This document shows positions 25,163-63,831 of a DNA stretch of 64,000 nucleotides, piece after piece. The notes below the pieces were generated by a model, which was not told where the DNA came from, searched no databases, and saw only the letters and a list, made by a program, of their open reading frames with translations. Source of the stretch: Branchiostoma floridae (lineage: Eukaryota > Chordata > Leptocardii > Amphioxiformes > Branchiostomatidae); assembly GCF_000003815.2 (NCBI RefSeq), contig NW_023365820.1, positions 94,451 to 158,450 on the forward strand, written 5' to 3'. Within the stretch, counting starts at the first letter, position 1. Each line of letters starts with the position of its first letter. Made by a program: the position numbers and the translations under genes.

Positions 25163-28100
25163 ATGAACTCTGCAGCGAAAATAACATTTTTTAACCACAT
25201 GTTTGCTGTGTTTTGGATGCTTCTAGCGCTGGCTCGGACAACATGGGGTAAAGGTAAGAAGGTGTTGGCCTCTCAGTGTGAAACTGGTTAAAACATGGCC
25301 GATTTGAAGAAAGATTACCAGAAGTGCTGAAGTCAACCACTAGTCTCTGACATTGTGTACATTTGTTACTGACTAATTGGATACGTTTTGCCATTAATAC
25401 CATTGGTACGCCAAAAATAGTTACTCAAGCAACTGGATATGGTTTTGAAACGGTCAGACGTTTCGGATAGAATCCACTATCCTTCGTCAGTGACACTGAA
25501 GAGATCTGGAAGAAACAGGTCTTTTATACTCTAACTATGAATTAAGACAATTTCAGATGTCCAATAGGAAAGGTTGTAAGACAATTCAGACTGAAGACAA
25601 TTTGGATTCCAAAGAAAACAAAGCTAAGCAAAAAGTCAAGCTGAAGACAATTTGGATTTCAAAGGATAGCAAGGTTAAGACACAGTTAATGCAAATGAGT
25701 CAATTAGCTCCTGTTGTTCTAGTTACAGGAGCTAAAAGTTTTGTCGGCGGGGGGGGGGGTAGTGCTATGTCCCAAATACCATTGGTAGCAGCAAGAATTC
25801 ACGCTAATACACTTATTCTGTTGTGACTGTTCTATCGTTGAACTTAAGGAGACAAATTCAGAGTAAACATGTCTTAGAGACGCCATTTTCCCATTGGTTT
25901 GATAATACTCTGAGCACAGTAATTAGATCTGAATCTGTGCCACTAGAATGTCAACAAACTTGTCTACTAAAACCAAGAACAGAGAACATAATATAAACTC
26001 CCGTATTGACTTGCTAGGGACTCTCTACGCAATTCTCGTCTACGAACAAGACATTTGGTAGATGCTGTAACACACACATGGTGTGATTTTGGTTAATGTA
26101 TACGATTAACAGATAGCTTTGTTTCAGATATTTTATTTCATTCTTTTGTAGCCATACGTATTAGCAAGAAGCCACAGTTTTAAACAATGTATTTAGTCCA
26201 TACAGTAACTGCTATAAAAACTCTAAAATCCGTATGATTAAAGGACTCAAACATTGTTTATCTGTATAATGTTGTACACGGTTACAGTGTAGATACAATA
26301 GAAGTGGTTTAGATTTATAGGTGTCACATTCCAAACTGGACTAAAAGAATGCGTGCCCTCCCGGTAAAACAAAACACTAGTAGAAAAACGACAACAAAGG
26401 ACAGGGACGATTTTTACACTAGATATATTCTTGTGGATTTGTAGATTTATATAAGCAAAGTATAGTATAAATTGTAAGAAATGTAAGCTGCAATATCTTA
26501 TGCAATCTTTACTGACTGCTAGACCGACATTTTCATCTGGGTAAGAAGCGCTCCCGGCGCCAGCCATTTTAGTCACCACAGGCCGGTCACGAGGGGCTGG
26601 TCACGACAGGCCGAATGTACCATTATACGTGTGGGGGCTTTTCCTAACTGGGAAAAACGTATTTCAATCAATGTTGTTATGTTTTCTATCACTACAGTAC
26701 CCATTCTGTAATTCTCAATCATCGGTTTTTAACAAATGAGCTTAATTACTCAAAATATACCCCATAGGTATCAAAGAATCAATGATCACAAGAGGCTGAA
26801 ACTTTGGGCTTTCTCCTAACTAACAAATTTTCAGTCAATTTTTTTTAATGTTTTCTATCACTAGAGCATCGGTTTTGTATTTTCCAATCATCAGTTCTTA
26901 ACGAATGGGCTTGATTACTCTTAAGAGCCATATTGGTCACCACAGGTCATAAGTATCAGAGAGACCATGGTATCGAGAGGCCCAAACCTTTCTCCTAACT
27001 GGGAAAAACAATTTTCTGTCAATTTTTATGATATTTTTTTATTACTAGAGCAACCATTATCTATCATCAGTTCTTAACAAATAAGCTTAATTACTCTAAA
27101 GAGACCTCTCGTGACAGTAGCCTTTCTAAAACTTAAAGTTGTCTCATTTGAGTAATTAAGTTTATCTGTTAAAAACAGCAGTTACAGCAGGGAATCTTTC
27201 CGGTGTGACTAGACATGCAGCTTGTAAGCACTTGATCGGTACAAAAGTCAGATACAAACCAATAAAAGCAAAAAAAAATCAAATACATGACACATTTAAA
27301 TAAACAGCCACCCAATCACCCCCCACCCGCCCACGATTAAGTACAAAACTACATATAACGTTAGGTCTTTCCTCACTTAGCTATAAAAGGAACAAAACCA
27401 ACTGTCTCTAAAACCAGCTTCACTCTAAGTTATTTTGTTCTTTCTGTCTGCAATCTTTTAAATTGTATACGAATTTCTACTTCAAAAGAAGGGTTCGTCG
27501 CTATTTTTAATAAACTACAAAAAATATTTATCCAACTGGTGGTCTATGAGATTCAGCGTATTTGGGTTTCTTTTCATTTTCAAACAGTAAAAAATTATTT
27601 GAATTTATGATAGCACATTAAGGCAAATTACCAACCATGAACACAGATCTATCACTTCAAGCCATTTCCCTAATGGGGTGTGTTTTGATACTCTTTTTGG
27701 GCTCGTGGTAGTCTAATAAAAAAAGAGGTGAAAATCACCCCAAAATCACTAAACACTATTCCGTGTTTTTAATGCGTACTGTCTTTGAAATTTATTTATT
27801 TCTGAAGTCTTGTACAATTAAATGTAATAATTGTTTATCGTCAGACTCCTTTGCTGACCCCAGCATCATTCGCCCCCCCGGGTTGGACAGTGTGGGGCTG
27901 AACGTTGTGGTCGGGTCGTCCGTGTGTTTGGGGGTCGTCGTCATCGGGGTGATGGCCGCCATCTTCTACCACCTGGTCACCAAATCACGCAGGTAAGATT
28001 TCTTCACGAACACTGAGTGTAAAAGATAAGAGATGAAAGTCTACGACCGTTTTAAGGCGGTATCAAGCGATAGCAGTAAGTTACGCAGAATTCTTTTTTT

Positions 28101-28256
28101 AAGTTGATCACAACCAAACACAAATAGAAATTCTTGTACGCACAACGCCGTTTGCGTCACACTGTTACAAATGTTCTACATTTTGAACTTGTAACTGATT
28201 TATATATAATTCATGTTTTTCCATATTTTTCCAGGAGTGAATTTCGTCTTCCTTGA
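25163..28256 (+). CDS. smTM-A: small type I membrane protein, three exons
   Basis: Unrecognised family. Proposed exons: 25163-25253 (phase 1 donor GGTAAG), 27845-27992 (acceptor CGTCAG, donor AGGTAAG) and 28235-28256; total 86 residues. Exon 1 gives a signal peptide (about residues 1-29, core MFAVFWMLLALA). Exon 2 gives a roughly 20-residue ectodomain (DSFADPSIIRPPGLDSVG), a membrane helix (VCLGVVVIGVMAAIFYHLV) and KSR. Exon 3 adds the tail RSEFRLP. The same exon lengths, splice sites and frame recur in smTM-B, and exons 1 and 2 recur in smTM-D, which argues strongly for a real gene. Intron 1 (2.6 kb) may hide further exons, but none is visible in conserved sequence. The partner TRIM gene upstream has been replaced by the composite transposon ending at 24910. 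Confidence 0.65.
25409..25774 (-). mobile_element. 366-bp retroelement-like insertion with 13-bp target duplication
   Basis: AATACCATTGGTA flanks it on both sides (25396-25408 and 25775-25787). The homologous intron of smTM-B has a single copy at 44899-44911, the empty site. A 13-bp duplication suits target-primed reverse transcription. The minus strand contains CTGACGA, a GGATAG/CTATCC stem-loop and GAAAC, then ACG...CGT, resembling a hammerhead core. Closely similar to 6329-6630. Confidence 0.8.
26640..27125. repeat. three intronic tandem units of about 175 bp
   Basis: Each unit has a TCCTAACT-GGAAAAA segment, TTTTCTATCACTA-AG, TCAATCATC-GTT-TTAAC and AATTACTC segment, starting near 26642, 26815 and 26992. 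The same three units are present in smTM-B intron 1 (about 45535-46020), so the array predates the duplication. Confidence 0.7.
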
Positions 28257-28429
28257 ACACCAGAGCAGTGCTCAAACATCGCAGAAGAAAGAAAACACTT
28301 CTTTTATTTATTCATCAACACAGTACAATACAGGACAGAGAGGTGATACACTCTACCATTACGCTAATATTCACATCACCTCTCAAAAAAAAGATAACAA
28401 CTCACAAGAAGAAATGAAATAACAATATC

Positions 28430-29934: not shown

Positions 29935-29945
29935 TCACAACAGTT

Positions 29946-30193
29946 GTACATAGCCAGTCTTATACGCTAAATAAACATTGTGCAGGCTTTGGTGATTGGA
30001 GGTCTATCATGCCTTATTTTTATTAGCTGTATGTGGGCTTTTCTTCCTGGTTAACAGTAACAGTTACAGCAGTTACGCTATTGGCTCAAACAAAGCAATA
30101 ACAAAAACTTGAATAATATTTCTCGCAGAGCCTTTTGCAATACAAATATAATGATCAAAGAGTGGGAGTAATTCATTTGTAATACCTTTCCTT
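29946..30193. other. spacer, nothing recognised
   Basis: AT-rich sequence between the retroelement remnant and the TRIM relic. No feature that I can support. Confidence 0.4.
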
Positions 30194-30838
30194 TTACAAA
30201 TGGAACATCTTGATAGACTTATTCCCAGAAACAACTAAATCTAAGTCATCAGTTTGCGTAAGTCCTGATGGAGAACACAGTCCGTGTTACTCCCGTGTCA
30301 GCAAGTGCCTGATAAACGTACCGTCCCGACTGAACACGGAAACACGATGTTTGTGAAAGTCAGCCACGATGATGTTGTCCTCGACCGCTGTCCGTGATGA
30401 CAGAGAAAGGGCCGTACGGTTGCCCATATAACCGAGCCAAGTGACCCACAAGTGAAGAGATGAAGACCGGTGGGGTCGAATATCTTTAGGTAACCGTTGC
30501 TACAGTCAATGGCAATTATTTGCTATCTGCTGTTGACGGCTACACGGAGAGTAGGATCAAATTGCTGCTGACCTTGACCTTTGTCCCTCAACTTTCAAAT
30601 GATGTCACCAATAGGACTAAGTACAAATACTTGGTACTTTACAGTGACAACGATACATCCCAAACCGTCAACAACGATAAATACTAAGTAGTTTAAACGT
30701 TCGCTAAAGCTCCTGGCACATGAAAAAACGTGCCCCCCTCCCCTGCTTGTCTAGTACGTCGACCATGTGTCTGTTTCCTGACATCAACAGATCACTGTTT
30801 GTCTGTGCCGCCACACACTATGGCTTATACCTCAACTC
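30194..30838 (-). pseudogene. TRIM-NHL relic: C-terminal NHL part only
   Basis: Aligns with the last about 215 codons of TRIM1-4: matches include CGTGTTACTCCCGTGTCAGC, the segment CCGTCCCGACTGAACACGG, GATGATGTTGTCCTCG and TGCTGACCTTGACCTTTGTC. It carries several frameshifts and substitutions, for instance extra bases around 30387, and is cut off sharply at about 30838 where another repeat starts. RING, B-boxes and coiled coil are missing. It marks a fifth TRIM position, tail-to-tail with smTM-A, and is far older than the TRIM1 and TRIM2 lesions. Confidence 0.9.
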
Positions 30839-31627
30839 GTGATGCTTTAGACGGATTGTGATGATATTTTGTTGTATGTAGTTTGGTATTAGGAAGGCTA
30901 TGTCAAGGTCTGTGGCCTTCTGAAGGCTTTCTTTGGTACTGCAGTGGTGCTTACCACTGTCGTGTTTGTCCTGGAGTGAGGACATAAAATCAAAAACCAC
31001 GCCCCGTTCGGGAGTGTTGCGTTTGCCGTAGCCCGTCTCAATCCTGTTTTACCACAGAACCACACCTTACCACAGCGGACCACTACCTACCACGCTCCGT
31101 ACAGGGGTTTTGCGTTTGCCGTAGCCCGTTTCAATCCTGTTTTGCTGCATTACCACACTATCACAGCGGACCGCTAGCTACCATGCTCCGTACGGGAGTG
31201 TCGCGTTTGCCGTAGCCCGTCTTTATACAGTTTTGCGGCAGAACCATACCCTACCACAGCATACCGCAAGCTACCACGGCCCGTAGAGGAGATAAGCAGG
31301 CGTGGGTCGCCTGATATGTCGTGCGCCCGCCTGCGTCTCCCGGCGATTTTATGACTGGCTTACAGGAAGACTGTGCCAAGTTATTACGCTGTTTGCCATC
31401 AATTTCGTGATACTATAGCTATTACGAGGATAGCGCGTTCGGGCATAGGGCCCGAAATTGTCCCGCACCCCTGGCTGCATTTGCCGGCGATGTCGTGATG
31501 GCTTACATGAACGCTACAGCAGCGTAGACATGGACGGCCCGATCGGGCATGGACCCCAACAGGTCCCCTGTACCCCTGGCTGCGCTCGCCGGCGATTTCG
31601 TGATGTCTTACACGAAACATCTGCCGC
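30839..31627. mobile_element. repeat element with 92-bp units and a foldback-like right end
   Basis: Three units with a 92-bp period (GTTTGCCGTAGCCCGT at 31021, 31113 and 31205) occupy about 30998-31290. The last 60 bp (GGCGATTTCGTGATG, then a CATCTGCC end at about 31627) resemble the right terminus of the 9.6-kb element at 57480-57520. The element truncates the TRIM relic. The left end is not identified. Confidence 0.55.
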
Positions 31628-36340: not shown

Positions 36341-38327
36341 TTACACCTTAAATATCTTGATAGAATGACAGTCAGTAACAAATAAATGTCCGTCTTGAGT
36401 CAGCGTTAGTCCCTTTGGATAGCACATTCCGTGTTCCTCCGGTGTCAGCACGTGTCTGATAAACGTGCCGTCCTGACTGAACAGGGAAACACGATGGTTC
36501 CAAAAGTCAGCCACGATGATGTTGCCCTCGCTGTCCGTGACGACACAGTTGGGGCGGCACAACTGTCCTAGTCCCGAGCCGTGTGACCCGCAGGTAAAGA
36601 GATGACGACCGGTGGGGTCAAATATCTTCAAGTTGTGGTTGCCAAAGTCACTGATGATGATTTGGTTGCTGCTGTTGACGGTCACACGGAGATAGGAACC
36701 CAACTGCTGCTGACCTTGACCTTTGTCCCCGAACTTCAGAATGACGTCACCACTAGGACTAAGTACAAACACTTGGTACCCGATAGTGATGATGATACGC
36801 CCTAAACCGTCAACAGCGATACCTTGTGTAGTTTTATCTTTCTCTGCAGAACCTTTCACCTGGATAACGCGTAACTCCCTCCCCTGTTTGTCCAGTACAT
36901 GAATCTTGTGTCCGTCTCCTGTCACCAACAGATCACCGTTTGTCAGTGCCGCCACACAACATGGGTTAAACTCAAATGCAAATTTCTTCTTGAAGGAGCC
37001 GTCTTTGTCAAGAAACTGGAGACGAAAGTTGTCACTATCAGTCACTACAATGTCTCCATCTGTGGTGACAGCGAGTGATGTAGGGAACTTAAACTGTCCA
37101 TCTCTACTGCCTTTCTGACCAACAGTTTTTAGCAGTGTAGGACTTCCGCGTCGGGTACATATTTCCACGTTTATCGGAAAGGGTGACATTTTCGTAAATG
37201 ACGCTCTTGTTTCTTTTATCCCGCCTATCAATTTTGACACGTCACGTTCTAGGTCACAAGCTGGTGGGTCAAAGGTCAAGTTCATGAAACCATTAGTCAG
37301 TTTAGCCCTCTTTGCGATTTTCTCGTCCGCGGTTTGCTCCATCCGTGCGGTCAGTTCTCCGGCCACAGACATGACCTCCGCTGGACTCCCGTACTCCAAC
37401 ACATTGTCCGTGAACTGGACACAGCTCTTGGCTGAGGCCAGGTCCATCTCAGCTGCCTCCATGGCGGCTTCCATCTGTTTCTCCCGAGCAGCATTCATGG
37501 CGCGAAGCTGACTGATTTTCTCACTTTTCACCTTCTGAACGGCCTCTATGATAGCCTCTGCCTGTTTTTCTATCTGTTCTTCTGTACGCTGTACCTGTAA
37601 ATGCCAATCGTTCTTTACTGACTGTAACTCTTCTATCCACTTCTCATGCAGATCTGCTGTGTTCTTGACTGACGACAGTTTTGCCTTGATCTTTGCCCTC
37701 TCCCTCTCTGCCGCCTTCTCTATCTCCACATACTGGTGATCTTTGTGCGCCGTTACCACACAGTGCAGACAGATAACCCGGTGACAGGTGTCACAGTAGA
37801 ACTTGTTCAGTTCATTGTGATCCTCACACTTGGATGATTCTCTTGCCCGAATCTCATTGGCGAGTCGCCCTGATTGTAGGTCGTCTTGAATCGTCATAAC
37901 TTTGTGGGACCTGGTCCCCTTGAGCCCACGGTGCGTGTCGTTACATACGTGACACAGGTAGTCGGTACACTCCACACAGTAGAACTCGGCAGGGATGCCT
38001 CTCGCACACGCCGTACAGGGGATTCCCTCCCTCTGTGACTCCGATGTTTTTCCGCTAACTTTTGGTTGTTGTCGCATAATGTCGTGCAATTTACCAACGA
38101 GGAAGTTGGACTTCAGCCCCTGGACGCCATTTTCTGGGAGGGGCACGTCCTGTCGGCACGTCGGACAGGAGAGTTTCCCTACCGGCTCTGTGGCCAAGGA
38201 GCTTCTCCAAACACGGCTGACAGAAGGTGTGAAGACACGGCAGCACCTTAGGCTGCCTGAAGTCTTCCAAACAGATCTGGCAGACGAGAAATTCCTCGGT
38301 TATTTCGCTGAAAGCGTTAGACGCCAT
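36341..38327 (-). pseudogene. TRIM2: intronless TRIM-NHL gene with 1-bp insertion in the RING
   Basis: Start ATG 38327 (MASNAF). The RING begins normally (CQIC, CLHTFC). After CLEKLL one extra T near 38195 (CTCCTTGGCC where sisters have CTCCTGGCC) shifts the frame, and translation stops at about 38091. The other frame is open from 38197 to the stop at 36341, covering the rest of the RING, both B-boxes, coiled coil and NHL blades without any further lesion. Removing one base would give the 661-residue family length. An ATG at 38197 could start a protein lacking half the RING zinc ligands. A single-base change in a short T run may be a sequencing error, so the gene could be intact. Its 3' flank and NHL region are closest to TRIM3. 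Confidence 0.85.
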
Positions 38328-39733: not shown

Positions 39734-39824
39734 ACGAACTCTTCAGCGAAACTGACATGATTTTACCACGTATTGGCTGTGTTTGTGATGCTTTTAGCGC
39801 TGACTATGGCAACATTGGGTGTAG
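39734..39824 (+). pseudogene. smTM relic: signal-peptide exon only
   Basis: A 91-bp segment with the same length and donor (GTAGGTAAG) as exon 1 of smTM-A and B. The start codon is ACG instead of ATG, and an in-frame TGA follows the ninth codon. Later codons still read VLAVFVMLLALT. Exons 2 and 3 were searched for between here and TRIM3 and not found. The promoter block upstream is the best conserved part. Confidence 0.75.
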
Positions 39825-41526: not shown

Positions 41527-43509
41527 TTACATCTTGAATATCTTGATACAATGTTGATTAGACACAAGCAAATAGTCGTCTCGAGTCAGCGTTAGTCCCC
41601 TTGGATAGTTCAGTCCGTGTTCCTCCCGTGTCAGCACATGTCTGATAAACGTGCCGTCCCGACTGAACAAGGAAACACGATGATTGTTCCAGTCAGCCAC
41701 GATGATGTTGTCCTCGCCGTCCGTGATGACACAGTAGGGGAAGAACAGCTGTCCAGGTCCCGAGCCACGTGACCCGCACGTGAACAGATAACGACCGGTG
41801 GGGTCAAATATCTTCAGGTTGTGGTTGTCCCAGTCACTGATGATAATTTGGTTACTGCTGTTGACGGTCAGACGAAGGTAGGGACCCAATTGCTGCTGCC
41901 TTTGACCTTTGTCCCCGAACTTCAAAATGACGTCACCTGTGGAACTAAGTACAAACACTTGGTACCCGATAGTGACGATGATACGCTCTAAACTGTCAAC
42001 AGCGATACCGAGTGTAGTTTTATCATTCTCTGCAGCACCTATCACCTTGATGACACGTGACTCCCTCCCCTGTTTGTCCAGTACGTGAATCTTGTGTCCG
42101 TCTCCTGTCACCAACAGATCACCGTTTGACAGTGTCGCAACACACCGTGGGTTGAACTCCAGTTCAACTTTCTTCTTGAAGGAGTCATCTTTGTCAAGAA
42201 ACTGGAGACGAAAGTTGTTACTTTCAGTCACTACAATGTCTCCATCTGTGGTGACAGCGAGTGATGTAGGGAAGTTAAACTGTCCATCTCTACTGCCTTT
42301 CTGACCAACAGTTTTTAGTAGTGTAGGACTTCCGCGTCGGGTACCTATTTCCACGTTTATCGGAACTGGTGACATTTTCGTAAATGACACTCTTGTTTCT
42401 TTTATCCCGCCTATCAATTTTGACACGTCACGTTCTAGGTCACAAGCAGGTAGGTCAAAGGTCAAGTCCATGAAACCATTGGTCAGATCAGCCCTCTTTG
42501 CGATTTCCGTGTCAGTGGTTTGCTCTAACCGTACTGTCAGTTCTCCGGCCACAGACATGACCTCCGCTGGACTCCCGTACTCCAACACATTGTCCGTGAA
42601 CTGGACACAGCTCTTGGCTGAGGCCAGGTCCATCTCAGCTGCCTCCATGGCGGCTTCCATCTGTTTCTCCCGAGCAGCATTCATGGCCCGGAGCTGACTG
42701 ATTTTCTCACTTTTCACCTTCTGAACGGCCTCTATGATAGCCTCTGCCTGTTTTTCTATCTCTTTTTCTGCACACTGCACCTGTGAAGGCCAATTGTTCT
42801 TCACTGACTGTAACTCTTCTATCCACTTCTCATGGAGGTCTGCTGTGTTTTTGACTGACGACAGTTTTGCCTTGATCTTTGTCCTCTCCCTCTCTGCCGC
42901 CTTCTCTATCTCCACATACTGGTGATCTTTGTGTGCAGGTACCACACAGTGCAGACAGATGACCCGGTGACAGGTGTCACAGTAGAACTTGTTCAGTTCA
43001 TTGTGATCCTCACACTTGGATGATTTTCTTGCCCGAATCTCATTGGCGAGTCGCCCTGATTGTAGGTCTTGAATCGTTAGAACTTTGTGGGACCTGGTCC
43101 CCTTGAGCCCACGGTGCGTGTCGTTACATACGTGACACAGATAGTCGGTACACTCCACACAGTAGAACTCGGCAGGGATACCTCTCGCACAGGCCGTACA
43201 GGGGATTCCCTCCCTCTGTGACTCCGATGTTTTTCCGCTAACTTTTGGTTGTTGTCGCATAATGTCGTGCAATTTACAAACGAGGAAGTTGGACTTCAGC
43301 CCCTGGACGCCATTTTGTGGGAGGGGCACGTCCTGTCGGCACGTCGGACAGGAGAGTTTCCCTACCGGCTCTGTGACCAGGAGCCTCTCCAAACACGGCT
43401 GGCAGAAGGTGTGAAGACACGGCAGCACCTTAGGCTGCCTGAAGTCCTCCAAACAGATCTGGCAGACGAGAAATTCCTCGGTTATTTCGCTGAAAGCGTT
43501 GGACGCCAT
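41527..43509 (-). CDS. TRIM3: intact intronless TRIM-NHL protein
   Basis: 660 residues from MASNAF at 43509; the upstream ATG at 43584 is in frame, but its 25 extra residues are not conserved, so I prefer the internal start. Order: RING about residues 15-60 (CQIC, CLHTFC, CLERLL, CPTC), B-box 1 about 110-145 (CTACARG, CVECTDYLCHVC), B-box 2 about 170-205 (CEDH, CDTC, CLHC, HKDH), coiled coil about 210-340, then NHL blades from about 390 to the end, each with a D/E-x-x-N-h-R/L signature. Family role: RING-dependent E3 ubiquitin ligase with a propeller for RNA or protein recognition, usually cytoplasmic. No filamin domain is evident, unlike vertebrate TRIM2/TRIM3/TRIM71. One exon. It is head-to-head with smTM-B at 1.15 kb. 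Confidence 0.9.
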   Translation of the reverse strand: MASNAFSEITEEFLVCQICLEDFRQPKVLPCLHTFCQPCLERLLVTEPVGKLSCPTCRQDVPLPQNGVQGLKSNFLVCKLHDIMRQQPKVSGKTSESQREGIPCTACARGIPAEFYCVECTDYLCHVCNDTHRGLKGTRSHKVLTIQDLQSGRLANEIRARKSSKCEDHNELNKFYCDTCHRVICLHCVVPAHKDHQYVEIEKAAERERTKIKAKLSSVKNTADLHEKWIEELQSVKNNWPSQVQCAEKEIEKQAEAIIEAVQKVKSEKISQLRAMNAAREKQMEAAMEAAEMDLASAKSCVQFTDNVLEYGSPAEVMSVAGELTVRLEQTTDTEIAKRADLTNGFMDLTFDLPACDLERDVSKLIGGIKETRVSFTKMSPVPINVEIGTRRGSPTLLKTVGQKGSRDGQFNFPTSLAVTTDGDIVVTESNNFRLQFLDKDDSFKKKVELEFNPRCVATLSNGDLLVTGDGHKIHVLDKQGRESRVIKVIGAAENDKTTLGIAVDSLERIIVTIGYQVFVLSSTGDVILKFGDKGQRQQQLGPYLRLTVNSSNQIIISDWDNHNLKIFDPTGRYLFTCGSRGSGPGQLFFPYCVITDGEDNIIVADWNNHRVSLFSRDGTFIRHVLTREEHGLNYPRGLTLTRDDYLLVSNQHCIKIFKM

Positions 43510-44661
43510 ACTTGCAACCCACCGAAACTGAACTGGAGAGGACAATAGGTTTCTTGCGTCATTAGGTTGTTCCATTTTACGCAATGGGGGTTTGTAAGAT
43601 ACTTCAAGTAAACGTATTGTTGCTTTTTAAATTTCTTTGTATCTACGAAGGCTATGGGATTTGTTGATTGTTTGTCCTTAATGTTTTAGTGTCTACGATG
43701 GCTGTGGATTTTGTTCTTAAATGGGAAGATATGACATAAGAGACATTCCTTGGATAGTTTACTAAATGTGCTGGACTCTTTTTTGACACGGAAGTATCAG
43801 CACCCACTGAAACTATGATAAACATGTACTACGTCATTGGGAAGTTCCTTGTACGGCGTTAAGGGGGTGCTTGTACGGATATGTCTTTCGTCAAAAACCA
43901 AGACAAGAGTGGGAAAAAGCCGTTATAAATAATTCAAACATAATCGTTTAATTGTGAAAAAGGCATATATATATATAAATGATCGATATCATTAGTAATG
44001 TTATGGTCGGGCACAAGTTAAGTATGCTGACCTTTCCATATTACGCTGCATTTTTCCAGTATTTTTTTACATAATTAGAATTATTTAGACTACAAACCGA
44101 GCTCTAATTTCTAAAACTCATGCAATCAACGGCTTCTAAGCTACTAATGAAATTCGTAGCTACTAAGCTGATTATCTTTTTTTTCCCGCCATTTGATCGA
44201 ATTAAATTAGATTATGAAAAAAGTCGCACCTGCTTCGTAAGATCAATGATGACGTTTCCATATTAAAACAATAACCCTTGACCTGTACAGGTTAAACTAC
44301 GTTTATTGTTTAACTAGATTCAGCGCTTATAATAGATTCCGGCTTATATTTCACTGGGCTCACAAACGCGTACTATTGAAGAAATAACCTCAATGTCCTA
44401 AATGTAGCAAAGACGACGAGGACACGCGAAGACAAAAACACGTAATAGTTCTACCGACTTGGGTTTGACACTATGCACTTAAAGTTCACTTTATTTGGTA
44501 TTTTCTGACAGACGTTTTAATTGGTACTTTACCCTTACCAAATACACAGCAGTACGGGTACGTTTTAATAGTACTGAACTGTTGACCCGGAACGGTGAAA
44601 AGACGACAAAAAAGTTGTCTGACGAGCCGCATCACTTTCTATACCCTAAGCCACAAACAAG
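43510..44661. promoter_or_regulatory. bidirectional spacer TRIM3 / smTM-B
   Basis: Contains GATAAACATGTACTACGTCA (a forkhead-like and a half-CRE-like site) followed by GGGAAGTTCC at 43839-43848, a match to GGGRNNYYCC, 330 bp upstream of the TRIM3 start. Near the other end (44577-44650) lies the smTM block with GACGAC (44602-44607) / GTTGTC (44614-44619) and TTTCTATACCC. Confidence 0.6.
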
Positions 44662-46966
44662 ATGAACTCTGCAGCGAAAATAACATTTTTTAACCACCTG
44701 TTTGCTGTGCTTTGGATGCTTCTAACGCTGGCTCGGACAACATGGGGTGAAGGTAAGAAGGTGTTGGCCTCTCAGTGTGAAACTGGTTAAAACAAAGCTG
44801 GCCAATTTGAAGAAAGATTACCACAGGTGCAGAATCCAACCACTAGTCTCTGGCATTGTGTACATTTGTTACTGACTAAATGGATACGTTTTGCCTTTAA
44901 TACCATTGGTAGCAGCAAGAATTCACGCTTATACGCTAATTCTGTTGATACTGTAACGCACACAGGGTATGATTTTGGTTAATGTATACGATTAACAGAT
45001 GGCTTTGTTTCAGATATTTTATTTCATTCTTTTATAGCCATACGTATTATCAAGAAGCCACAGTTTTAAACAATGTATTTAGTCCATACAGTAACTGTTC
45101 TAAAAACTAGAGCTCTAAAACCCGTATGATTAAAGGACTCAGACATTGGTTATCTGTATAATGTTGTACACGGTTACATTGTAGATACAATAGAAGGGAT
45201 TAGATATTTAAAGGTGTCACATTCGAAACTGGACTAAAAGAATGTGTGCCCTCCCGGTAAAACAAAAAAACAAGTAGAAAAACGACAACAAAGGACAGAA
45301 ACGATTTTTACTCTAGCTATATCCTTGCGGATTTGTAGATTTATATAAGCAAAGTATAGTATGAATCGTAAGAAATGTAAACTGCAATATCGTATGCAAT
45401 CTTCACTGACTGCTAGACCGACATTTTCATCTGGGTAAGAAGCGCTCCCGGCGCCAGCCATTTTAGTCACCACAGGCCGGTCACGAGGGGCTGGTCACGA
45501 CAGGCCGACAGTACCATTTTACGTGTGGGGGCTTTTCCTAACTGGGAAAAATCTAATTTCAATCAATGTAGTTATGTTTTCTATCACTATGGTACCCATT
45601 CTGTGATTCTCAATCACCGTTTTGTAACAGATGAGCTTTATTACTCAAAAGAGACCCCATAAGTATCAAAGAGTCTATGGTCACAAGAGGCTGAAACTTT
45701 GGGCTTTCTCCTAAATGTGATAAACAAATTTTCAGTCAATTTTTTAAAATGTTTTCTATCACTAGAGCATCGATTTTGTATTTTCCGATCATCAGTTCTT
45801 AACGAATTGGCTTGATTACTCTTAAGAGCCATATTGGTCACGACAGGCCATAAGTATCAGAGAGACCATGGTATTGAAAGGTCCAAACCTTTCTCCTAAC
45901 TGGGAAAAACAATTTTCTGTCAATTTCTATAATATCTTTGTTACTAGAGCAACCATTCTGTGATTCTCAATCATCAGCTCTTAACAAATAAGCTTAATTA
46001 CTCTAAAGAGACCTCTCGTGGCCGAAGCCTTTCTAAACCTTAAAGGTGTCTCTTTTGTGTAATTAAGTTTATCTGTTTAAAACAGCAGTTACAGCAGGGA
46101 ATCTTTCCGGCGTGACTAGATATGCAGCTTGTAAGCACTTGATCGGTACAACAGTGAGATACAAACCAATAAAAGCAAAAACAAAATTATCAAATACATA
46201 ACGAATGTAAATACCCACTCCTTACCCGCGCACGATTAAGTACAAAGTACATATAACGTTAGGTCTCTCCTCACTTAGCTATAAAAGGAACAAAACCTAA
46301 TGTCTCTAAAAACAGCTTCACTCTAACTTATTTTGTTCTTTCTGTCTGCAATCTTTTTTAAATTTCAAGCCATTTTCCCTAATGGGGTGTGTTTTGATAC
46401 TCTTTCTGGGCTCGTGGTAGTCTAATAAGAAAAGAGGTAAAAATCCCCCCCCCCCAAATCACTAATCACTATTTCGTGTTTTTAATGCGTACTGTCTTCG
46501 AAATTTATTTATTTCTGAAGTCTTGTATAATTAAATGTAATAATTGTTTATCGTCAGACTCCTTTGCTGACCCCAGCATCATTCGTCCCCCCGGGTTGGA
46601 CAGTGTGGGGCTGAACGTTGTGGTCGGGTCGTCCGTGTGTTTGGGGGTCGTCGTCATCGGGGTGATGGCCGCCATCTTCTACCACCTGGTCACCAAATCA
46701 CGCAGGTAAAATCTCTTCTCTTCAGTGTAAATGATAAGAGATGAAATTGTACGACCGTTTTAAGGCGGCATCTAGCGATAGCAGTAAGTTACGCAGAATT
46801 CTGTTTAAAACTGTTGATCACAACCAAACACAAATAGAAATTCTTGTACTCACAACGCCGTTTGCGTCACACTGTTACAAATGTTCTACATTTTGAACTT
46901 GTAACTGATTTATATATAATTCATGTTTTTCCATATTTTTCCAGGAGTGAATTTCGTCTTCCTTAA
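44662..46966 (+). CDS. smTM-B: small type I membrane protein, three exons
   Basis: Exons 44662-44752, 46558-46705 and 46945-46966 have the same lengths and splice phases (1, then 2) as smTM-A; 86 residues. Signal peptide core HLFAVLWMLLTLA; exon 2 protein is identical to smTM-A (DSFADPSIIRPPGLDSVG, then the helix VCLGVVVIGVMAAIFYHLV); tail SRRSEFRLP ends at TAA where A has TGA. Intron 1 is 1.8 kb and lacks the 366-bp insertion of copy A. Conserved coding with synonymous change (for example ATTCGCCCC against ATTCGTCCC) supports selection on protein. Function unknown; head-to-head with TRIM3. Confidence 0.7.
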
Positions 46967-48345: not shown

Positions 48346-48352
48346 ACACCAG

Positions 48353-53710: not shown

Positions 53711-54240
53711 GGCGCCTGGCTATATGATAATAGATAATATCGCTGGCAAAATCGTAAAACTTTATTCAAACACAAAAGGCATGTTTTGCCAGGTATGTTG
53801 AGGGCTAATACCACATCGTCGCCAATGTAGTCCCAGAACAGTGGTCACCCTGTCACATTTGGAGAAAATCGATCGGACGACGATTCTGCGACAATCGCCC
53901 GTGCCTCGCTAATAATAATAACTTTATTGCAGAACAATTGTAAAAGGTACAAAGAATGGCTTATTTTACAGTGACAGGGACGGTTTTCAGGTGAAAAATA
54001 CACGCAACCCTCTGTCGATCTTAATATACGGCCAATCTTCCATCGATACGCCCGAAGATCGTGGATAATGTGACGGGTATTATTAGGGGGCCAATTCTAC
54101 TCAACCTTTTCCTTATATCACAAGCTATCTGCCACATAGCCTCGATCATGACTCTCTGGGCATGTTGCGTCTTTATAGGGGGGTCATAATACACTTTTGC
54201 TAAGGCCCCATTTCCACTTGACGGCGCTCTCACCGCGCTC

Positions 54241-57083
54241 TCTACATCACTACAAATGTCTACAGGAACCATTGTAGAAAAGTGTAGAATTTCTACAAAA
54301 CTACACTGCCTACATGTGAAACTTGGATGGTCCGCTTCCTGTGTGCCTCTCTACAAATATCTACAGTGACAAGTGTAGAAATGTGTAGAATTTTTACATC
54401 ACTACAAATGTCTACAGGAACCATTGTAGAAATGTGTAGGATTTCTACAAAACTACACTGCCTACATTTGAAACTTGGATGGTCCACTTCCTGTGTGCCT
54501 TTCTACAAATATCTACAGTGACAAGTGTAAAAATGTGTAGGATTTCTACATCACTACAAATGTCTACAGATACCATTGTAGAAATGTGTAGAATTTCTAC
54601 AAAACTACACTGCCTACATGTCAGGGACATTTTGTGGGGCCGCGTAGCACAGTGGTAGTGTATTCGGCCCGTGACCGAGAGGTCGCCTGTTCGAATCCGC
54701 CTGCCGTGTTGCCGGTCTTGTGCCCTTGGGAAAGGCACTTTACACGACTTTCCTCACTTTACTCAAGTGAAAAATGAGTCGTCCCTCGGATAGGACGTTA
54801 AATGGAGGTCCCGTGTATGAGGAGAGCTATACCCTATGCACGTTAAAGAACCCGCCACATGTGCGAACATCCACCCGAGCGGATCAAACCATTCCGGCCA
54901 AAATAGGGGTAGGGAATCTCCCGAGCAGCCCTCGAAACCCCTGCTTCGCCTATTGGGTCAGTTAGTCCTCACTCATAGTGAGCAATTGGGCTGGTCTCGA
55001 TCATGATGTTTCTGACCTAGGGCGAAGAGTTGCTGTTACAGTTCCAATCATGTAACCAGTAACATTGAGTGGCCTTCAGGCCTTGTTACGTGGTGACCAT
55101 TGAGTAAAAAAAAAAAATGTCAAACTTGGATGGTCCGCTTCCTGTGCCCCTCTCTACAAATATCTACAGTGACAAGTGTAGAAATGTGTAAGATTTCTAC
55201 ATCACTACAAATGTCTACAGGAACCATTGTAGAAATGTGTAGGATTTCTACAAAACTACACTGCCTACATGTGAAACTTGGATATTCCGCTTCCTGTGTG
55301 CCTCTCTAGAAATATCTACAGTGACAAGTGTAGAAATGTGTAGAATTTCTACAAAACTGCACTGCCTACATGTCAAACTTGGATGGTCCGCTTCCTATGT
55401 TCCTCTCTACAAATATCTACAGTGACAAGTGTAGAAATATGTAGGATTTCTACATCTGATTCACTACAAATGTCTACAGGAACCATTGTAGAAATGTGTA
55501 GAATTTCTACAAAACTACACTGCCTACATGTGAAACTTGGATGGTCCGCTTCCTGTGTGCCTCTCTACAAATATCTACAGTGACTATTTTAGAAATGTGT
55601 AGGATTTATACATCACTACAATTGTCTACAGGAACCATTGTAGAAATGACTGTGTAGAATTTCTACAAAACTACACTACCTACATGTGAAACTTGGATGG
55701 TCCGCTTCCTGTGTCCCTCTCTACAAATATCTACAGTGACAAGTGTAGAAATGTGTAGGATTTCTACATCACTACAAATGTCTACAGGAACCATTGTAGA
55801 AATGTGTAGAATTTCTACAAAACTACACTGCCTACATGTCAAACTTGGATGGTCCGCTTCCTGTGTCCCTCTCTATAAATATCTACAGTGACAAGTGTAG
55901 ACTTATGTAGGATTTCTACATCACTACAAATGTCTACAAGAATCTTGTAGAAATGTGTAGAATTTCTACAAAACTACACTGCCTACATGTGAAACTTGGA
56001 TGGTCCGCTTCCTGTGTGCCTCTCTACAAATATCTACAGTGACAAGTGTAGAAATGTGTAGGATTTCTACATCACTACAAATGTCTACAAGAACCATTGT
56101 AGAAATGTGTAGAATTTCTACAAAACTACACTGCCTACATGTGAAACTTGGATGGTCCGCTTCCTGTGTCCTTCTCTATAAATATCTACAGTGACAAGTG
56201 TAGAAATGTGTAGGATTTCTACATCACTACAAATGTCTACAGGAACCATTGTAGAAATGTGTAGGATTTCTACAAAACTACACTGCCTACATGTCAAACT
56301 TGGATGGTCCGCTTCCTGTGTCCCTCTCTACAAATATCTACAGTGACAAGTGTAGACTTATGTAGGATTTCTACATCACTACAAATGTCTACAGGAACCA
56401 TTGTAGAAATGTGTAGGATTTCTACAAAACTACACTGCCTACATGTCAAACTTGGATGATCCGCTTCCTGTGTCCCTCTCTACAAATATCTATAGTGACA
56501 AGTGTAGAAATGTGTAGGATTTCTACATCACTAAAAATGTCTACAGGAATCTTGTAGAAATGTGTAGAATTTCTACAAAACTGCACTGCCTACATGTGAA
56601 ACTGGGATGGTCCACTTCCTGTGTGCCTCTCTACAATTATCTACAGTGACTATTTTAGAAATGTGTAGGATTTCTACATCACTACAATTGTCTACAGGAA
56701 CCATTGTAGAAATGTGTAGAATTTCTACAAAACTACACTGCCTACATGTGAAACTTGGATGGTCCGCTTCCTGTGTCCCTCTCTACAAATATCTACAGTG
56801 ACAAGTGTAGAAATGTGTAGGGTTTCTACATCACTACAAATGTCTACAGGAAGCATTGTAGAAATGTGTAGAATTTCTACAAAACTACACTGCCTACATG
56901 TGAAACTTGGATGGTCCGCTTCCTGTGTCCCTCTCTACAAATATCTACAGTGACAAGTGTAGGAATGTGTAGGATTTCTACATCACTACAAATGTCTACA
57001 GGAATCATTGTAGAAATGTGTAGGATTTCTACAAAACTACACTGCATACATTTAAAACTTGGATGGTCCGCTTCCTATGTTTC
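54241..57083 (-). repeat. 152-bp minisatellite, right array
   Basis: About 16-18 units inverted relative to 48353-50688 and more variable: several units have deletions or a 5-bp insertion (near 55456) or changed pentamers (GACTATTTTAG for GACAAGTGTAG). Interrupted by a SINE at 54622-55115. Confidence 0.95.
54622..55115 (+). mobile_element. tRNA-derived SINE inserted in the minisatellite
   Basis: tRNA-like head at about 54635-54705: A box TAGCACAGTGGTAGTG, an anticodon stem TTCGG/CCGAG with a 7-nt loop, B box GTTCGAATCC. The body contains TGTGCCCTTGGGAAAGGCAC and CACGTTAAAGAACCC. The tail is an A run ending at about 55115. The minisatellite is broken after CTACATGTC and resumes with ATGTCAAACTTGG, so ATGTC is duplicated. 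Confidence 0.85.
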
Positions 57084-57520
57084 TGGTGTTGAAGCGGGCC
57101 CGCGGGGCTAGATTTTGCGTTGATTCAATTCCTGATGTCATATACGATCCCGACACGGTCACAACGGAATGCCTGACACGTCGAAGGTGTTGCAACGAAC
57201 CCGTGCGGTAAGTCGCATTCCGCGGTGAATCTGTGATGTCTTACGTGGGACATCACGAAATCTCAGACGGCGACATGCCTGGCACGGCTACGGCGAGGGT
57301 GACACCACGAAATCTCAGACGGCGAAATGCCTGACACGGCTACGGCGAGGGTTTCGCAACGACACCGCACGGCTAGCTGCATTTCGCGGCGAACATGGAA
57401 CATCACGAAATTTCCTACGGCGAAATGCCTGACACGGCTACGGCGAGGGTGTCGCAACGACACCGCACGGCTAGCTGCATTTCGCGGCGATTTCGTGATG
57501 TGGTACATGGAACATCTGCC
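57081..57520 (-). repeat. right terminal inverted repeat
   Basis: Inverted copy of 47883-48345, lacking one internal AGAGATCACAGATTA segment. Ends ACATGGAACATCTGCC at 57520. Confidence 0.9.
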
Positions 57521-58044: not shown

Positions 58045-60030
58045 TTACACCTTGAATATCTTCATAGAATGATTGTCAGAAACAACCAAATGTCCGTCGG
58101 GAGTCAGCGTTAGCCCCAATGGATAGTACAATCCGTGTTCCTCCCGTGTCAGCACGTGCCTGATAAACGTGCCGTCCTCACTGAACATGGAAACACGATG
58201 GTTCCAATATTCAGCCACGACAATGTTGTCCTCGCTGTCCGTGATGATACAGTAGGGTCCGCTCAGCTGTCCAGGTCCCGTGCCATATGACCCGCACGTG
58301 AAGAGATGACGACCGGTGGGGTCAAATATCTTCAGGTTGTGGTTGCCACAGTCACTGATGATGATTTGGTTGCTGCTGTTGACGGTCACACGGAGGCAGG
58401 AACTCAGCTTCTGCTGACCTTGACCTTTGTCCCCGAACTTCAGAATGTTGTCCCCACTGAAACTGAGTACAAGCACTTGGTACCCGATAGTGACTACGAT
58501 ACGTCCTAAACTGTCAAAAGCGATACCTTCCGTATTTTTATCTTTCTCTGCAGCCCCTGTCACCTGGATGACACGTGACTCCCTCTCCTGTTTGTCCAGT
58601 ACGTGGATATTGTGTCCGTCTCCTGTCACCAACAGATCACCGTTTGTCAGTGCCGTCACACACTCAGACTTAAAGTCCAATTCAACTTTTCTCTTGAAGG
58701 AGCCATCATTGTCGAAAAACTGCAGACGACTGTTGTTAAAATCAGACGCTACAATGTCTCCATCTGTGGTGACAGCGACTGATGTAGGACAGTTAAACTG
58801 TCCATCCCCACTGCCTTTCTGACCAACGGTTTTTAGCAGTGTAGGACTTCCGCGTCGGGTACATATTTTAATGTTTATCTGAACTGGTGACAGTGTGCTT
58901 GTCAATGGCACTCTTGTTTCTTTTATCCCACCTATCAATTTTGACACGTCCCGTTCCAGGTTACAATACGGTAGGTCAAAGATCAGGTTGGTTAAACCCT
59001 TGGTCAGATCAGCCCTTTTTGCGATTTTCTCGTCAGCGGTTTGCTCCATCCGTGCGGTCAGTTCTCCGGCCACAGACATGACCTCCGCTGGACTACCGTA
59101 CTCCAACACATTGTCCGTGAACTGGACACAGCTCTTTGCTGAGGCCAGGTCCATCTCAGCTGCCTCCATGGCGGCTTCCATCTGTTTCTCCCGAGCAGCA
59201 TTCATGGCGCGAAGCTGACTGATTTTTTCACTTTTCACCTTCTGAACGGCCTCTATGATAGCCTCTGCCTGTTTTTCTATCTGTTCTTCTGTACGCTGTA
59301 CCTGTAAAGGCCAATCGTTCTTGACTGACTGCAACTCTTCTATCCACTTCTCATGCAGGTCCGCTGTGTTCTTGACTGACGACAGTTTTGCCTTGATCTC
59401 TGCCCTCTCCCTCTCTGCCGCCTTCTCTATCTCCACATACTGGTGATCTTTGTGCGCCGTTACCACACAGTGCAGACAGATGGCCCGGTGACAGGTGTCA
59501 CAGTAGAACTTGTGCAGTTCATTGTGATCCTCACACTTGGAAGTTTCCCTTGAGCGAAGCTCCGCAACAAATTTGCCTGACTGTATGTCTTGTATTGTTA
59601 GAACTTTGTGGGACTTACTCACTTTGAGCCTACGGTGCGTTTCGTTACACATCTGACACAGATAGTCGGTACACTCGACACAATAGAACTCGGCAGGGTT
59701 GTCTCTCTCACAGGTCATACAGGGGACTACAACTGTCCCCGGATCCGATGTTTGTCCGTTCCCTTGTGGTTGCTGTCGCAGAATGTCGTGCAATTTACCA
59801 ACGAGGAAGTTGGACTTTAGCCCCTGGACGCCATTTTCTGGGAGGGGCACGTCCTGTCGGCACGTCGGACAGGAGAGTTGTACTACCCGCTGTGACGCAA
59901 GAAGCCTCTCCAAACACGACTGGCAGAAGGTGTGAAGACACGGCAGCACCTTAGGCTGCCTGAAGTCCTCCAAACAGATCTGGCAGACGAGAAATTCCTC
60001 GGTTATTTCGCTAAAGGCGTTGGACGCCAT
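58045..60030 (-). CDS. TRIM4: intact intronless TRIM-NHL protein
   Basis: 661 residues from MASNAF at 60030; an upstream in-frame ATG at 60090 adds 20 unconserved residues. The RING has all ligands (CQIC, CLHTFCQSC, CPTC) with a distinctive ASQRVVQLS stretch; B-box 1 (CMTCERDNPAEFYCVEC), B-box 2 (CEDH...HKDH), coiled coil identical over long stretches to TRIM1-3, then NHL blades with GSGDGQF and D/E-x-x-N signatures. Role as for TRIM3: probable E3 ligase with a recognition propeller. NHL and 3' flank are closest to TRIM1, whereas the 5' flank and spacer follow the TRIM3 pattern, which suggests exchange between copies. Head-to-head with smTM-D at 1.15 kb. Confidence 0.9.
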   Translation of the reverse strand: MASNAFSEITEEFLVCQICLEDFRQPKVLPCLHTFCQSCLERLLASQRVVQLSCPTCRQDVPLPENGVQGLKSNFLVGKLHDILRQQPQGNGQTSDPGTVVVPCMTCERDNPAEFYCVECTDYLCQMCNETHRRLKVSKSHKVLTIQDIQSGKFVAELRSRETSKCEDHNELHKFYCDTCHRAICLHCVVTAHKDHQYVEIEKAAERERAEIKAKLSSVKNTADLHEKWIEELQSVKNDWPLQVQRTEEQIEKQAEAIIEAVQKVKSEKISQLRAMNAAREKQMEAAMEAAEMDLASAKSCVQFTDNVLEYGSPAEVMSVAGELTARMEQTADEKIAKRADLTKGLTNLIFDLPYCNLERDVSKLIGGIKETRVPLTSTLSPVQINIKICTRRGSPTLLKTVGQKGSGDGQFNCPTSVAVTTDGDIVASDFNNSRLQFFDNDGSFKRKVELDFKSECVTALTNGDLLVTGDGHNIHVLDKQERESRVIQVTGAAEKDKNTEGIAFDSLGRIVVTIGYQVLVLSFSGDNILKFGDKGQGQQKLSSCLRVTVNSSNQIIISDCGNHNLKIFDPTGRHLFTCGSYGTGPGQLSGPYCIITDSEDNIVVAEYWNHRVSMFSEDGTFIRHVLTREEHGLYYPLGLTLTPDGHLVVSDNHSMKIFKV

Positions 60031-61180
60031 TGTTGTATAGAAGAAAGCCTTGCCACTGAAACTAAACTCCAGACGACAAAAAGGTTGCAAGCTTCGTTGG
60101 GTCGTTCCATTTTACGCTATAGGGGGCGTGTTGATTTTACGAACCATTTCCCTCAGCCACTTTGCACAAATTTGCTGTTGTTCCTTGGTGTTTTTAGTGT
60201 CTACTTTGGCTGTGGATTTTGTTAATTGTTCTTAAATGAGAAGACATGACATAAGAGACATTCTTTGGTTAGTTTACTAATTGTGCTGGATTTTTTTCTT
60301 GACACGGAAGTATCGGCACCCACTGCAACTCCGATAAACATGTACTACGTCATTGGGAAGTTCCATGTTCCATTTTAAGGGGGTGCTTGTACATATATGT
60401 CTTTCTTCAAAAACAAAAAACAAGATTGGAAGTAAAGCGTTATAAATAATTCAAACATAATCGATTGATTGTGAATTGGCATAAATGATCGATTTCATCA
60501 GCCATGTTATGGCCAGGCACAAGTATGGCGACCTTTGCATATTACGCTGCATGTTTTCAGATTTTTTTTACATAATAAGAATTATTAAGACTACATACTG
60601 AGCTCTAATTCTTAAGATTCATGCAATTAACGGCTTCCAAGCTACTAATGAAATCCGTACCTAAGAAGCTAATTATCTCTGCTTTATTCAGCCATTTGAT
60701 CGAATTAAAACAGATTGTAAAAAATTCGCACCTGCTTTTATTTATAAGATCAATGATGACACTTTTACCTTGTAACGATAACCCTTGACCTAGTTAGGTT
60801 ACGATTACGTCTTAGTGTTTGTAAGATTCATCACTTGCACAAAAATGCCGTCTTATATTTAATTGGCCTCACAATACGCGTACTATTGAAGAGATAACCT
60901 CAGCGTTCTAAATTTAGCAAAGACAAGGTCGAGGTCAAAACCATAATAGTTCTAACGACTTGGGTTTGACACTAAAATATACACGTAAAGTTCACTTTAT
61001 TATACTTCTGATTGACGTTTTAATTCGTACTTTACCCTTACCAAATATACAGCGGTACGTGTACGTTTAGTACTGAACCGTTGACCCGGAACGGTTGAAA
61101 GACGACACCAAAAAGTCGTCTGACGAGCCGGATCACTTTATATACCCGGAGCCACAAACAAGACGAACTCTGTGGGGAAA
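60031..61180. promoter_or_regulatory. bidirectional spacer TRIM4 / smTM-D
   Basis: GATAAACATGTACTACGTCA, then GGGAAGTTCC at 60355-60364 (325 bp upstream of the TRIM4 start). The smTM block is at 61078-61150 with a perfect GACGAC (61101-61106) / GTCGTC (61115-61120) dyad, GACGAGCCGG and TTTATATA (61137-61144). Intervening sequence is AT-rich and collinear with 43510-44661. Confidence 0.65.
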
Positions 61181-63831
61181 ATGGCGTGTTTTAACCACCT
61201 GTTGACTGTGTTTGGAACGCTTCTAGCGCTGGCTGTGACAACATGGGGTGAAGGTAAGAAGGTGTGGGCCTCTCAGTGTTAAACTGGTTAAAACAAAGGA
61301 GGCCAAGTTGAAGAAAGATTACCAGAAGTGCAGAAGTCAACCACTAGTCTCTGGCATTGTGTACGTACATTTGTATCTAACTAAGTAGAAACGTTTCGAT
61401 ATTTTCACAATTGGTGTTAACGTTGAGACGGTAGGAGCAAGAATTCACGCTTATACGGAAAAGTCTGTTGTCACTGTCCAATCGTTGAACTTAAGGAGAC
61501 AAATTTAGAGTAAACGTGTTTGAGCGACGCCATTTTTTCCTGCGGGTATACTCACACCACAGTAATTAGATCTGAATCTGAGCCAAGCACTCCACTAGAA
61601 TGTCAACAAACTTGTCTACTAAAACCAAGACCAGAGAAACTATACTTCTGTCTGAATTAGCTATAGACTTGCTAAGTTTACCATAATCCTTCTGTGAATA
61701 TTAAGTTTCGTGTGTTTTTAACACACACAGGGTGTGTTTGTAGTTAACGTACACGAATTACGAATTTTTCAGACATTTTTAATTCTTTCTTTTGTTTCCC
61801 ACGTAATAGCAAGAAGCCCCAGTTTGAAAGATATTTATTCAGTCAAGACATGTAAAGTAACTGCGATAAAATCTAAAGCTCTAACATACACACAATAAAA
61901 GGACTAAGATTAAATGTACAACGTTGTACACAGGTACAGTGAAGAGGTTAGGATATTTATAGGTGTCAAGTACCAACTAAAAGAATGCCGTCCCGGTAAA
62001 ACAACACACCGGTAGAAAAACGACAACAAACGACCGATTTCAACACTAGATAAATCCTTATGGACGTGTTCAATAAAAGTATAGTATATCATGTAAATTG
62101 TAATATCGTATACATTCTTTTTGACTACTAGAATGATATGCAAGGTGTGTGCGTGAACGAATGAATGGGTGTTGTTGTTGCATGGCGAACTTGGTCAACA
62201 GACTCAAGTTCTGCTTGGGTTAGCTTCCAAATAACAGGCCTGAAAAGAAACGTGGTTTGGTTTTCTCAGTGACACTCCTACTAGTGTTAACTCAACAGTA
62301 AATAAAATGAGCTAGGCTTGTTTTGAACTCCTCAAATTGAGTAATCACTTTAAGGTTGGTTTATGAGCGGAAGGCATTTGCAACTGTAGGGTACTAAACA
62401 ATATGAGTCGTTAATTTATTCATGTGTCCCTGATTTCTAAACTCTTCTGCAATCTACCCTACAGAACCATGTTTGTAGACCTACCAACCTACCTACCTAG
62501 TCCCTTGACCTCCAGGTCCTTGGGGGGGACAAGGTAGACACCGAGTCTTATTACATCTTCCACCTTTGTCGAGTTCACGGGGTTAAGTCTGCTCTTGACG
62601 TGCCACCCTCCCACCCCTAAAGCATTATTCTACGTGATGACAAATCCTGTGAGGGAAACATTTTTTTAATTTTTTTTATTTATTGATCTCAAAACATGTG
62701 GGTAGCCCCTTCAACTTGTTTGAAGTTGATTTCCAAGGGGGCCCACTACATAAATAACAAAAACGAAACGTGTTACATTCGGTAAGACAACCAGAGGACA
62801 CCAAACAAAATATACAAATAAACCGATGCGTCTTTACCAAGAACAGTTGTCGAGGTCAACAAAAAACGTCAACGGTGGAGGTCAGAGGTCCATGTGCGGA
62901 GGAGTGTGTCTTAGGGCAGCTTTAAACTGCCGTAGAGTTGGTGCATGTCTTATGTCCATTATCATCGAGAGGAGAGACAAACCTCGGGCACGTTAAAGAA
63001 CCCAGTACACCTATTGAGAAGAGAAGGAGTCCTACCCAGTGTGACTGGATCAAATAAATCTGTGCAGATATGCAGCTTGTACGTCCATAGGAATTTTTAC
63101 TGAGTATGCAACACAGTTATACAAGCCAAATAAATCATCATAATTACTGAAACATGTGACAAACCACATTCAGATTAGGCCTACATGCCACCATCAAATA
63201 CAAACCTAGTGCGTATAGCGTAAGGTCTTTCCTCACATTGTTATAAAAGAAAAAAAGCCAAATGTCTCTAAAATCGGTCTCTTTCTAAGATATTTTGTTC
63301 TTTTTTGTTGTTGTTGCGTGCAATCTCATATAACCCATACCAAGTATTGCATAAAAACAGGGTTAGTTGCTTTAATTAGGAAACTGAAATACAAACAATA
63401 ACTACCTTGGTCTATGTGTTATCATAAAACAGAAGCATAAATTATATAAGTTTTCCTTTCAATTTTGAATACAAAACATTTAGTAACATTTATGAAAGCA
63501 CATTTAGGCCATAGGATACCATGAACACTCAAGGGTGGCTAGTTAATGATAAAGCAATTATCCTCAACCGGGGTGAATCCTAATACTCTTTCTGAGCTCG
63601 TGGTAGTTTGTTTGTTTCATCCTTTGCTTATTCATAAAAGCTCAATTGTTGTATAATTGAATGTAATATTTCTTTATCTTCAGACTCATTTGCTGACCCC
63701 AGCATCATGCGTCCGGCCGGCTTGGACAGTGTGGGGCTGAACGTTGTGGTCGGGGTGTCCGCGTGTGTGGGGCTCTTCGTCATCGGGGTGATGGCCGCCA
63801 TCTTCTACCACCTGGTCACAAAATCACGCAG
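61181..63831 (+). CDS. smTM-D: small type I membrane protein, 3' end outside window
   Basis: Exon 1 is 61181-61253. The ATG is six codons downstream of the A/B start because that codon is ACG here; it reads MACFNHLLTVFGTLLALAVT, a good signal peptide. Exon 2 is 63684-63831 (acceptor TTCAG, donor AGGTAAAA): DSFADPSIMRPAGLDSVG, then helix ACVGLFVIGVMAAIFYHLV and TKSR. By analogy exon 3 should begin about 200 bp past the donor, beyond the window edge. Ectodomain and second half of the helix are conserved with A and B, while the residues around VVGVSACVGLF differ. Intron 1 is 2.4 kb. Confidence 0.65.
62640..63065. mobile_element. partial SINE-like sequence in smTM-D intron
   Basis: CACGTTAAAGAACCC (about 62990) and a following GTGTGACTGGATCAAA segment resemble the SINE body at 54838-54890, which has CACGTTAAAGAACCC and GAGCGGATCAAA. 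No tRNA-like head is found. Low-complexity T run at the left (62660-62690). Confidence 0.4.

Follow-up and report, generated by a model that had tools for sequence, protein, structure and literature searches.

The tandem array of small genes in a 64,000-nucleotide window of the Branchiostoma floridae genome (C262:94451-158450) raises the question of what these genes encode, and of why several of them stand head-to-head with genes for TRIM-NHL ubiquitin ligases, which are classed as TRIM Subfamily C in PMC3503706. Judged from their sequences, the small genes probably constitute a tandem orphan family of predicted small type I membrane proteins of about 86 residues, which would pack a short outer stub against a partner as accessory proteins. 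Small membrane proteins evade annotation because their short exons lie amid long introns. In this array, the genome sequence alone makes the case through diverged paralogs that keep to one exon plan, and these single out the outer stub.

We read 174 kb of C262 and 30 kb of a second contig (C9) at length and placed the exons by blastn and tblastn, while the six-frame genome searches covered 431 contigs (513 Mb). The gene plan comprises a signal-peptide exon, a 148-bp membrane exon and a short tail exon, with introns of phase 1 and phase 2 following exons 1 and 2, respectively. The preliminary description had reported three copies (A, B, and C) and one relic (D) sharing 91-bp and 148-bp exons and their phases, and these exons were confirmed in place, with GT/AG splice sites intact in A, B, and C. 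They are given below in window positions, or in contig positions where C262 is named.

25163..25253, + strand: copy A exon 1, predicted signal peptide, with GT/AG sites
27845..27992, + strand: copy A exon 2, predicted stub and transmembrane helix, 148 bp
28235..28256, + strand: copy A exon 3, coding part, SEFRLP then TGA
39736..39824, + strand: relic D, exon 1 alone, without start codon and with an in-frame TGA
44662..44752, + strand: copy B exon 1, 91 bp
46558..46705, + strand: copy B exon 2, 148 bp
46945..46966, + strand: copy B exon 3, coding part, SEFRLP then TAA
61181..61253, + strand: copy C exon 1 counted from the downstream Met, 73 bp, the usual ATG being ACG at 61163
63684..63831, + strand: copy C exon 2, 148 bp
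C262:158538-158577, just beyond the window end: copy C exon 3
C262:160012-160084, 169117-169261, and from 169942: gene I exons 1, 2, and 3
C262:171684-171768, 172423-172573, and 173024-173045: gene J exons

With B as the query, exons 1 and 2 of copies A and C matched at expect values (E) of 1e-21 to 2e-73 and exon 1 of D at 4e-16, which excludes chance for the matches of A, C, and D to B. The A and B proteins have 86 residues and the C-terminus SEFRLP, and an in-frame TAA lies 15 bases upstream of the ATG in the genomic sequence of both. Copy C has an in-frame Met 18 bases past its ACG, from which a protein of 86 residues ending in KTPEHG can be read; exon 3 supplies 6 to 13 residues of the tail. 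In relic D the usual ATG is also ACG, and blastn found no exon 2. Beyond the window, the 174-kb stretch of C262 also holds copies F, G, and H, a relic E and the diverged neighbours I and J, and a six-frame genome search with the 50-residue exon-2 peptide of B matched eight places, seven on C262 and one on C9. Seven copies (A, B, C, G, H, I, and J) are open from start to stop and follow the three-exon plan with phases 1 and 2; five young copies retain start, splice sites and stop. Copy F is open except for a stop in the tail and the C9 copy is frame-shifted and decayed; together with D and E they make up the decayed or cut copies.

The diverged paralogs I and J repeat the three-exon plan and its phases, encode 86 and 85 residues, and share 37% and 30% identity with B, respectively. 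In the 174 kb, tblastn run with composition correction off detected J exon 2 at E 3e-4. Compared with 2000 shuffles that preserve the stub, helix and tail layout, the alignments B-I and B-J each beat all 2000, C-J beat 1999, and I-J beat 1979. Comparison of B and I over exon 2 gave 0.53 nonsynonymous (dN) and 1.31 synonymous (dS) substitutions per site (Fisher p 0.014). Within the first 23 aligned codons, covering the stub and the outer helix edge, dN was 0.17 and dS 1.53 (ratio 0.11; Fisher's test 2.6e-4 or 2.5e-5 depending on rounding), whereas the remainder of exon 2 had a ratio of 0.95, the split at codon 23 having been picked after viewing the alignment and two one-codon gaps having been set manually. 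Among 20,000 neutral simulations run at the B-I divergence, a stop-free outcome with identity as high as that observed arose at a frequency of 0.0002.

Similarity relative to the flanks was also compared in seven pairs of copies. Exon 2 was more similar than its flanks in all seven, as in B-C with 12 of 148 differences versus 62 of 141 and 67 of 232, flank figures that are inflated by forced alignment (blastn implies about 46 of 207). Exon 1 was more similar than its flanks in A-B, F-B, and G-B, the 5′ flank comparison of A and F being inflated as only about 283 of the 400 bases are homologous; H-B and the three pairs involving C showed no such excess, and exon 3 did not differ from its flanks in any pair. 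The deep comparison of B with I is clearer on coding than are the young copies.

The predicted protein was characterized by hydropathy and the -3,-1 rule. All seven open proteins begin with a signal-peptide-like stretch whose possible cleavage sites fall close to the exon junction; one further helix (hydropathy 2.2-3.1 over 19 uncharged residues) follows, and basic residues come after it, as in small type I membrane proteins. Ten residues are invariant across the seven aligned proteins (V16, R40, P41, G43, L44, N50, V51, V52, G54, and G60 in B numbering), and the B-like copies and I share the stub and outer helix motif FADPSI-x-RP-x-GLD-x-VGLNVV-x-G, a segment that also carries the small-residue spacing N-x3-G-x5-G. 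Exon 1 would encode a cleaved signal peptide, and exon 2 a stub of about 20 residues running into one transmembrane helix, followed by a short tail. The stub and the outer helix end would form the working surface in the B-like copies and I, and the accessory role would consist in this segment packing either on itself or on a larger membrane protein, at the outer and membrane part of the latter. For the small protein we infer transcription, the secretion route, the topology, the packing role and the partner.

Pfam searches returned nothing above cut-off in the five proteins scanned (B at E up to 1; C, H, I, and J at E up to 10). Matches below cut-off were rejected, namely Mid2 (E 0.0011 to 0.08 in B, C, H, and J), Rep_1B (0.027, I) and FeoB_associated (0.12, J), as were chance-level NCBIfam matches to SecE in three of the seven members (best 0.0096) and small_EYxxD in one (0.16), and chance-level PDB matches to herpesvirus gD in a single-sequence search (0.26) and to ACE (0.75) and NDUEG3 (1.4) in a profile search. 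The literature search returned no title or abstract opening dealing with this gene, and the passages of PMC12373286 concern lancelet gene presence and absence and not this locus. The same-plan diverged paralogs, the selection on the B-I stub, the absence of Pfam matches above cut-off and the chance-level PDB matches bear out the preliminary description in proposing a putative, undescribed family of small type I membrane proteins.

The closest comparisons are with known small membrane partners. FXYD proteins are small type I regulators of Na,K-ATPase with a PFxYD motif before the helix, and the lancelet protein resembles them in being small and single-pass, with a signal peptide, a short outer stub, a glycine-spaced helix and a short basic tail; however, PFxYD is absent from all seven lancelet proteins, and the FXYD Pfam model is not among the matches listed for B, C, H, I, and J, in a search whose HMMER filters drop most weak matches. 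The FcR-gamma and DAP12 adaptors carry a charged helix residue and an immunoreceptor tyrosine-based activation motif (ITAM) in the tail; the lancelet protein is likewise short, with a tiny ectodomain and one helix, but in all seven proteins the 19 helix residues lack charge and the tail lacks an ITAM. Since PFxYD, ITAM and helix charges are absent, the small protein is not assigned to either group. By analogy, it may act like FXYD or FcR-gamma/DAP12, a short helix packing on a larger partner. The TRIM-NHL ligases are its gene neighbours, not its relatives.

Besides the choice of the codon-23 split, several results weigh against an orphan family of working membrane proteins. The signal-peptide and helix calls come from hydropathy and the -3,-1 rule rather than from a trained predictor. 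J exon 2, used as a genome query, matched J alone, I versus J reached only E 0.046 in BLASTP, and most of the stub motif is missing from J, which retains only P-x-GL and NVV-x-G plus a later G; the shared exon plan and adjacency make up much of the case for J as a member. B versus J is uninformative (dN 0.80, dS 1.04), and a stop-free outcome alone occurred at 0.26 in the neutral simulation and is thus not telling. The comparison of dN/dS among copies, a check proposed in the preliminary description, gave no clear signal in the young copies B and C (exon 2 dN 0.076 and dS 0.111, ratio 0.68; exon 1 dN 0.24 and dS 0.12, ratio about 2). These ratios would suit a drift of the young copies without function, with only I and J, or neither, being working genes, and so would the decayed or cut state of D, E, F, and the C9 copy and the failure of exon 1 in B-C and H-B, and of exon 3 in all pairs, to exceed the flanks. 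We consider such drift rather unlikely, in view of exon 2 exceeding its flanks in every pair, exon 1 doing so in three, and the signals kept in five young copies.

As a further alternative, the exons could belong to a larger receptor as its signal-peptide and membrane ends, the ectodomain exons in between being still spliced in or recently lost. The exon 1/2 junction is of phase 1, the usual phase of shuffled ectodomain modules, and the young-copy introns of 1.8-6.3 kb leave room. Intron 1 of eight copies was searched for open exons 60-600 bases long that begin and end in phase 1 and are flanked by a pyrimidine-rich acceptor and a donor of the GTRAG form, the one donor type covered; no such hidden exon was shared across the eight. 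Introns of F, H, A, C, and J gave no candidates; the long candidate in G is reverse-transcriptase-like (retroelement) by eye and unshared, as are two short candidates, one of 63 bases in B and one of 81 bases in I, in being unshared. I and J have the same plan, and J intron 1, at only 654 bp, leaves little room for a hidden ectodomain. The lack of a shared exon and the short J intron make it most likely that signal peptide, stub, helix and tail are the whole gene, and a larger present-day or recent receptor is accordingly improbable. The phase-1 junction may reflect an old origin from a larger receptor, and old ectodomain loss is a possible origin of the family.

Separately, the 9-kb intron 1 of gene I carries on its minus strand two long frames (1254 and 805 residues; C262:160778-167129), which by eye are of the non-LTR (non-long-terminal-repeat) retroelement kind. 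The exon-2 peptide had no good match in low-density lipoprotein (LDL)-receptor-type genes in a window-wide tblastn search; the window also carries a long gene of LDL-receptor class A repeats (7787-10912, 23 matched stretches), and a similar gene lies upstream at C262:51514-57009.

The TRIM-NHL neighbours in the window are the following.

36344..38327, - strand: TRIM-NHL gene of unit D, frame shifted near the start
41530..43509, - strand: TRIM-NHL gene of unit B, open
58048..60030, - strand: TRIM-NHL gene of unit C, open
30197..30847, - strand: TRIM-NHL remnant downstream of copy A, NHL part only

RING, B-box and NHL repeats were matched in the TRIM-NHL neighbours of B and C. The head-to-head spacing of 1.1-1.4 kb in three units, as described preliminarily, was reproduced, with 1407 (D), 1153 (B) and 1133 bp (C) from TRIM ATG to exon-1 start, and G (about 1.12 kb) and H (1.13 kb) follow it. 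This arrangement suggests a reading in which the small protein serves the adjoining ligase as a dedicated partner or as its membrane anchor, the two genes staying paired for the sake of co-expression from the 1.1 kb between them: five of the eight young exon-1 copies are head-to-head with a TRIM-NHL start, five of the seven TRIM-NHL genes or pieces that keep the RING start in the 174 kb have exon 1 opposite, both members are open in H, B, and C, and both are decayed in D. However, A, E, F, I, and J have no head-to-head TRIM; two TRIM copies of the array (at 66581-68563 and 96385-98369, within the 174 kb read) have no exon 1 opposite; and in G an open small gene faces a TRIM truncated to residues 1-415. 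In the C9 relic, a broken TRIM sits on the other strand between exon 1 and exon 2. Outside the array, the two closest TRIM-NHL paralogs were checked individually for the small gene (C6, 81%; C262:286193, 76%), and neither has a relative of it upstream, over about 4.4 and 4.5 kb. The B exon-2 query found relatives only on C262 and C9, versus 71 genome matches of the B TRIM (pieces counted apart, 67 of 980 candidates scored) on many contigs. A dedicated ligase partner is therefore unlikely.

Joint duplication of the pair, as claimed preliminarily, applies to B and to G, H, and C, whose upstream homology to B extends about 2 kb, into the TRIM gene. It applies in parts to D, but not to A and F, whose upstream homology to B covers about 283 bases, or to I and J, which have no TRIM of their own alongside. 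Since copies stand unpaired and the two closest outside TRIM paralogs lack the small gene, the pairing is a feature of one duplicating segment and looks like a local by-product; under the predicted accessory role of the orphan family, the TRIM-NHL gene would travel along because both sat in that segment. The suggestion of a co-regulated ligase and adaptor was not sustained, its support being neighbourhood in one array. A striking gene pairing can thus arise as a by-product of local duplication. Very unlikely in our estimate is the bolder scheme that the stub is a new extracellular docking segment regulating a lancelet receptor or pump, with the H, B, and C protein/TRIM-NHL pairs co-expressed and setting partner turnover.

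Four TRIM genes, those of the F side and of units H, B, and C, were compared. All have open frames, and their dN/dS lies at 0.05-0.36 over the RING part and at 0.48-0.66 over the NHL part. Each of the six pairs shows its lowest dN in the RING and coiled-coil parts and its highest in the linker that precedes NHL; in three of the six, linker dN exceeds dS. Elsewhere, C4:28391584-28466136 holds a dense tandem TRIM-NHL cluster of genes and pieces 60-71% identical to the B gene, and the B exon-2 query had no match on C4.

The young copies and relics are also preceded by a common upstream element.

44582..44630, + strand: upstream element of B, inverted repeat AGACGAC...GTTGTCT, with equivalents before A, C, D, E, F, G, H, and the C9 copy

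The inverted-repeat stretch lies about 30 to 80 bases before the exon-1 ATG in all nine young copies and relics examined, and no such element was seen by eye upstream of I and J. C, D, E, and C9 have the version AGACGAC...GTCGTCT. RNAfold gave a stem of seven pairs in seven of the nine, six in G and five in H (with no shuffled control); one pair varies, being G-C in C, D, E, and C9, G-U in A and B, and A-U in F, and an outer CCGG...CCGG is present only in A, C, D, E, and C9. The inverted repeat belongs to the small gene's side because A and F keep it without a TRIM, and it is possibly a palindromic binding site in the promoter or a hairpin in the leader. C and D are 86-96% alike in three windows over the element, windows from +25 to +1025 ranging from 0.08 to 0.84. 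The element as a general island of conservation was rejected, as this holds only for C versus D, B-C and B-D being equally alike elsewhere, around +275. The window further contains two arrays of a 152-bp tandem repeat, at 48351-50630 and 54129-57164, the second inverted relative to the first.

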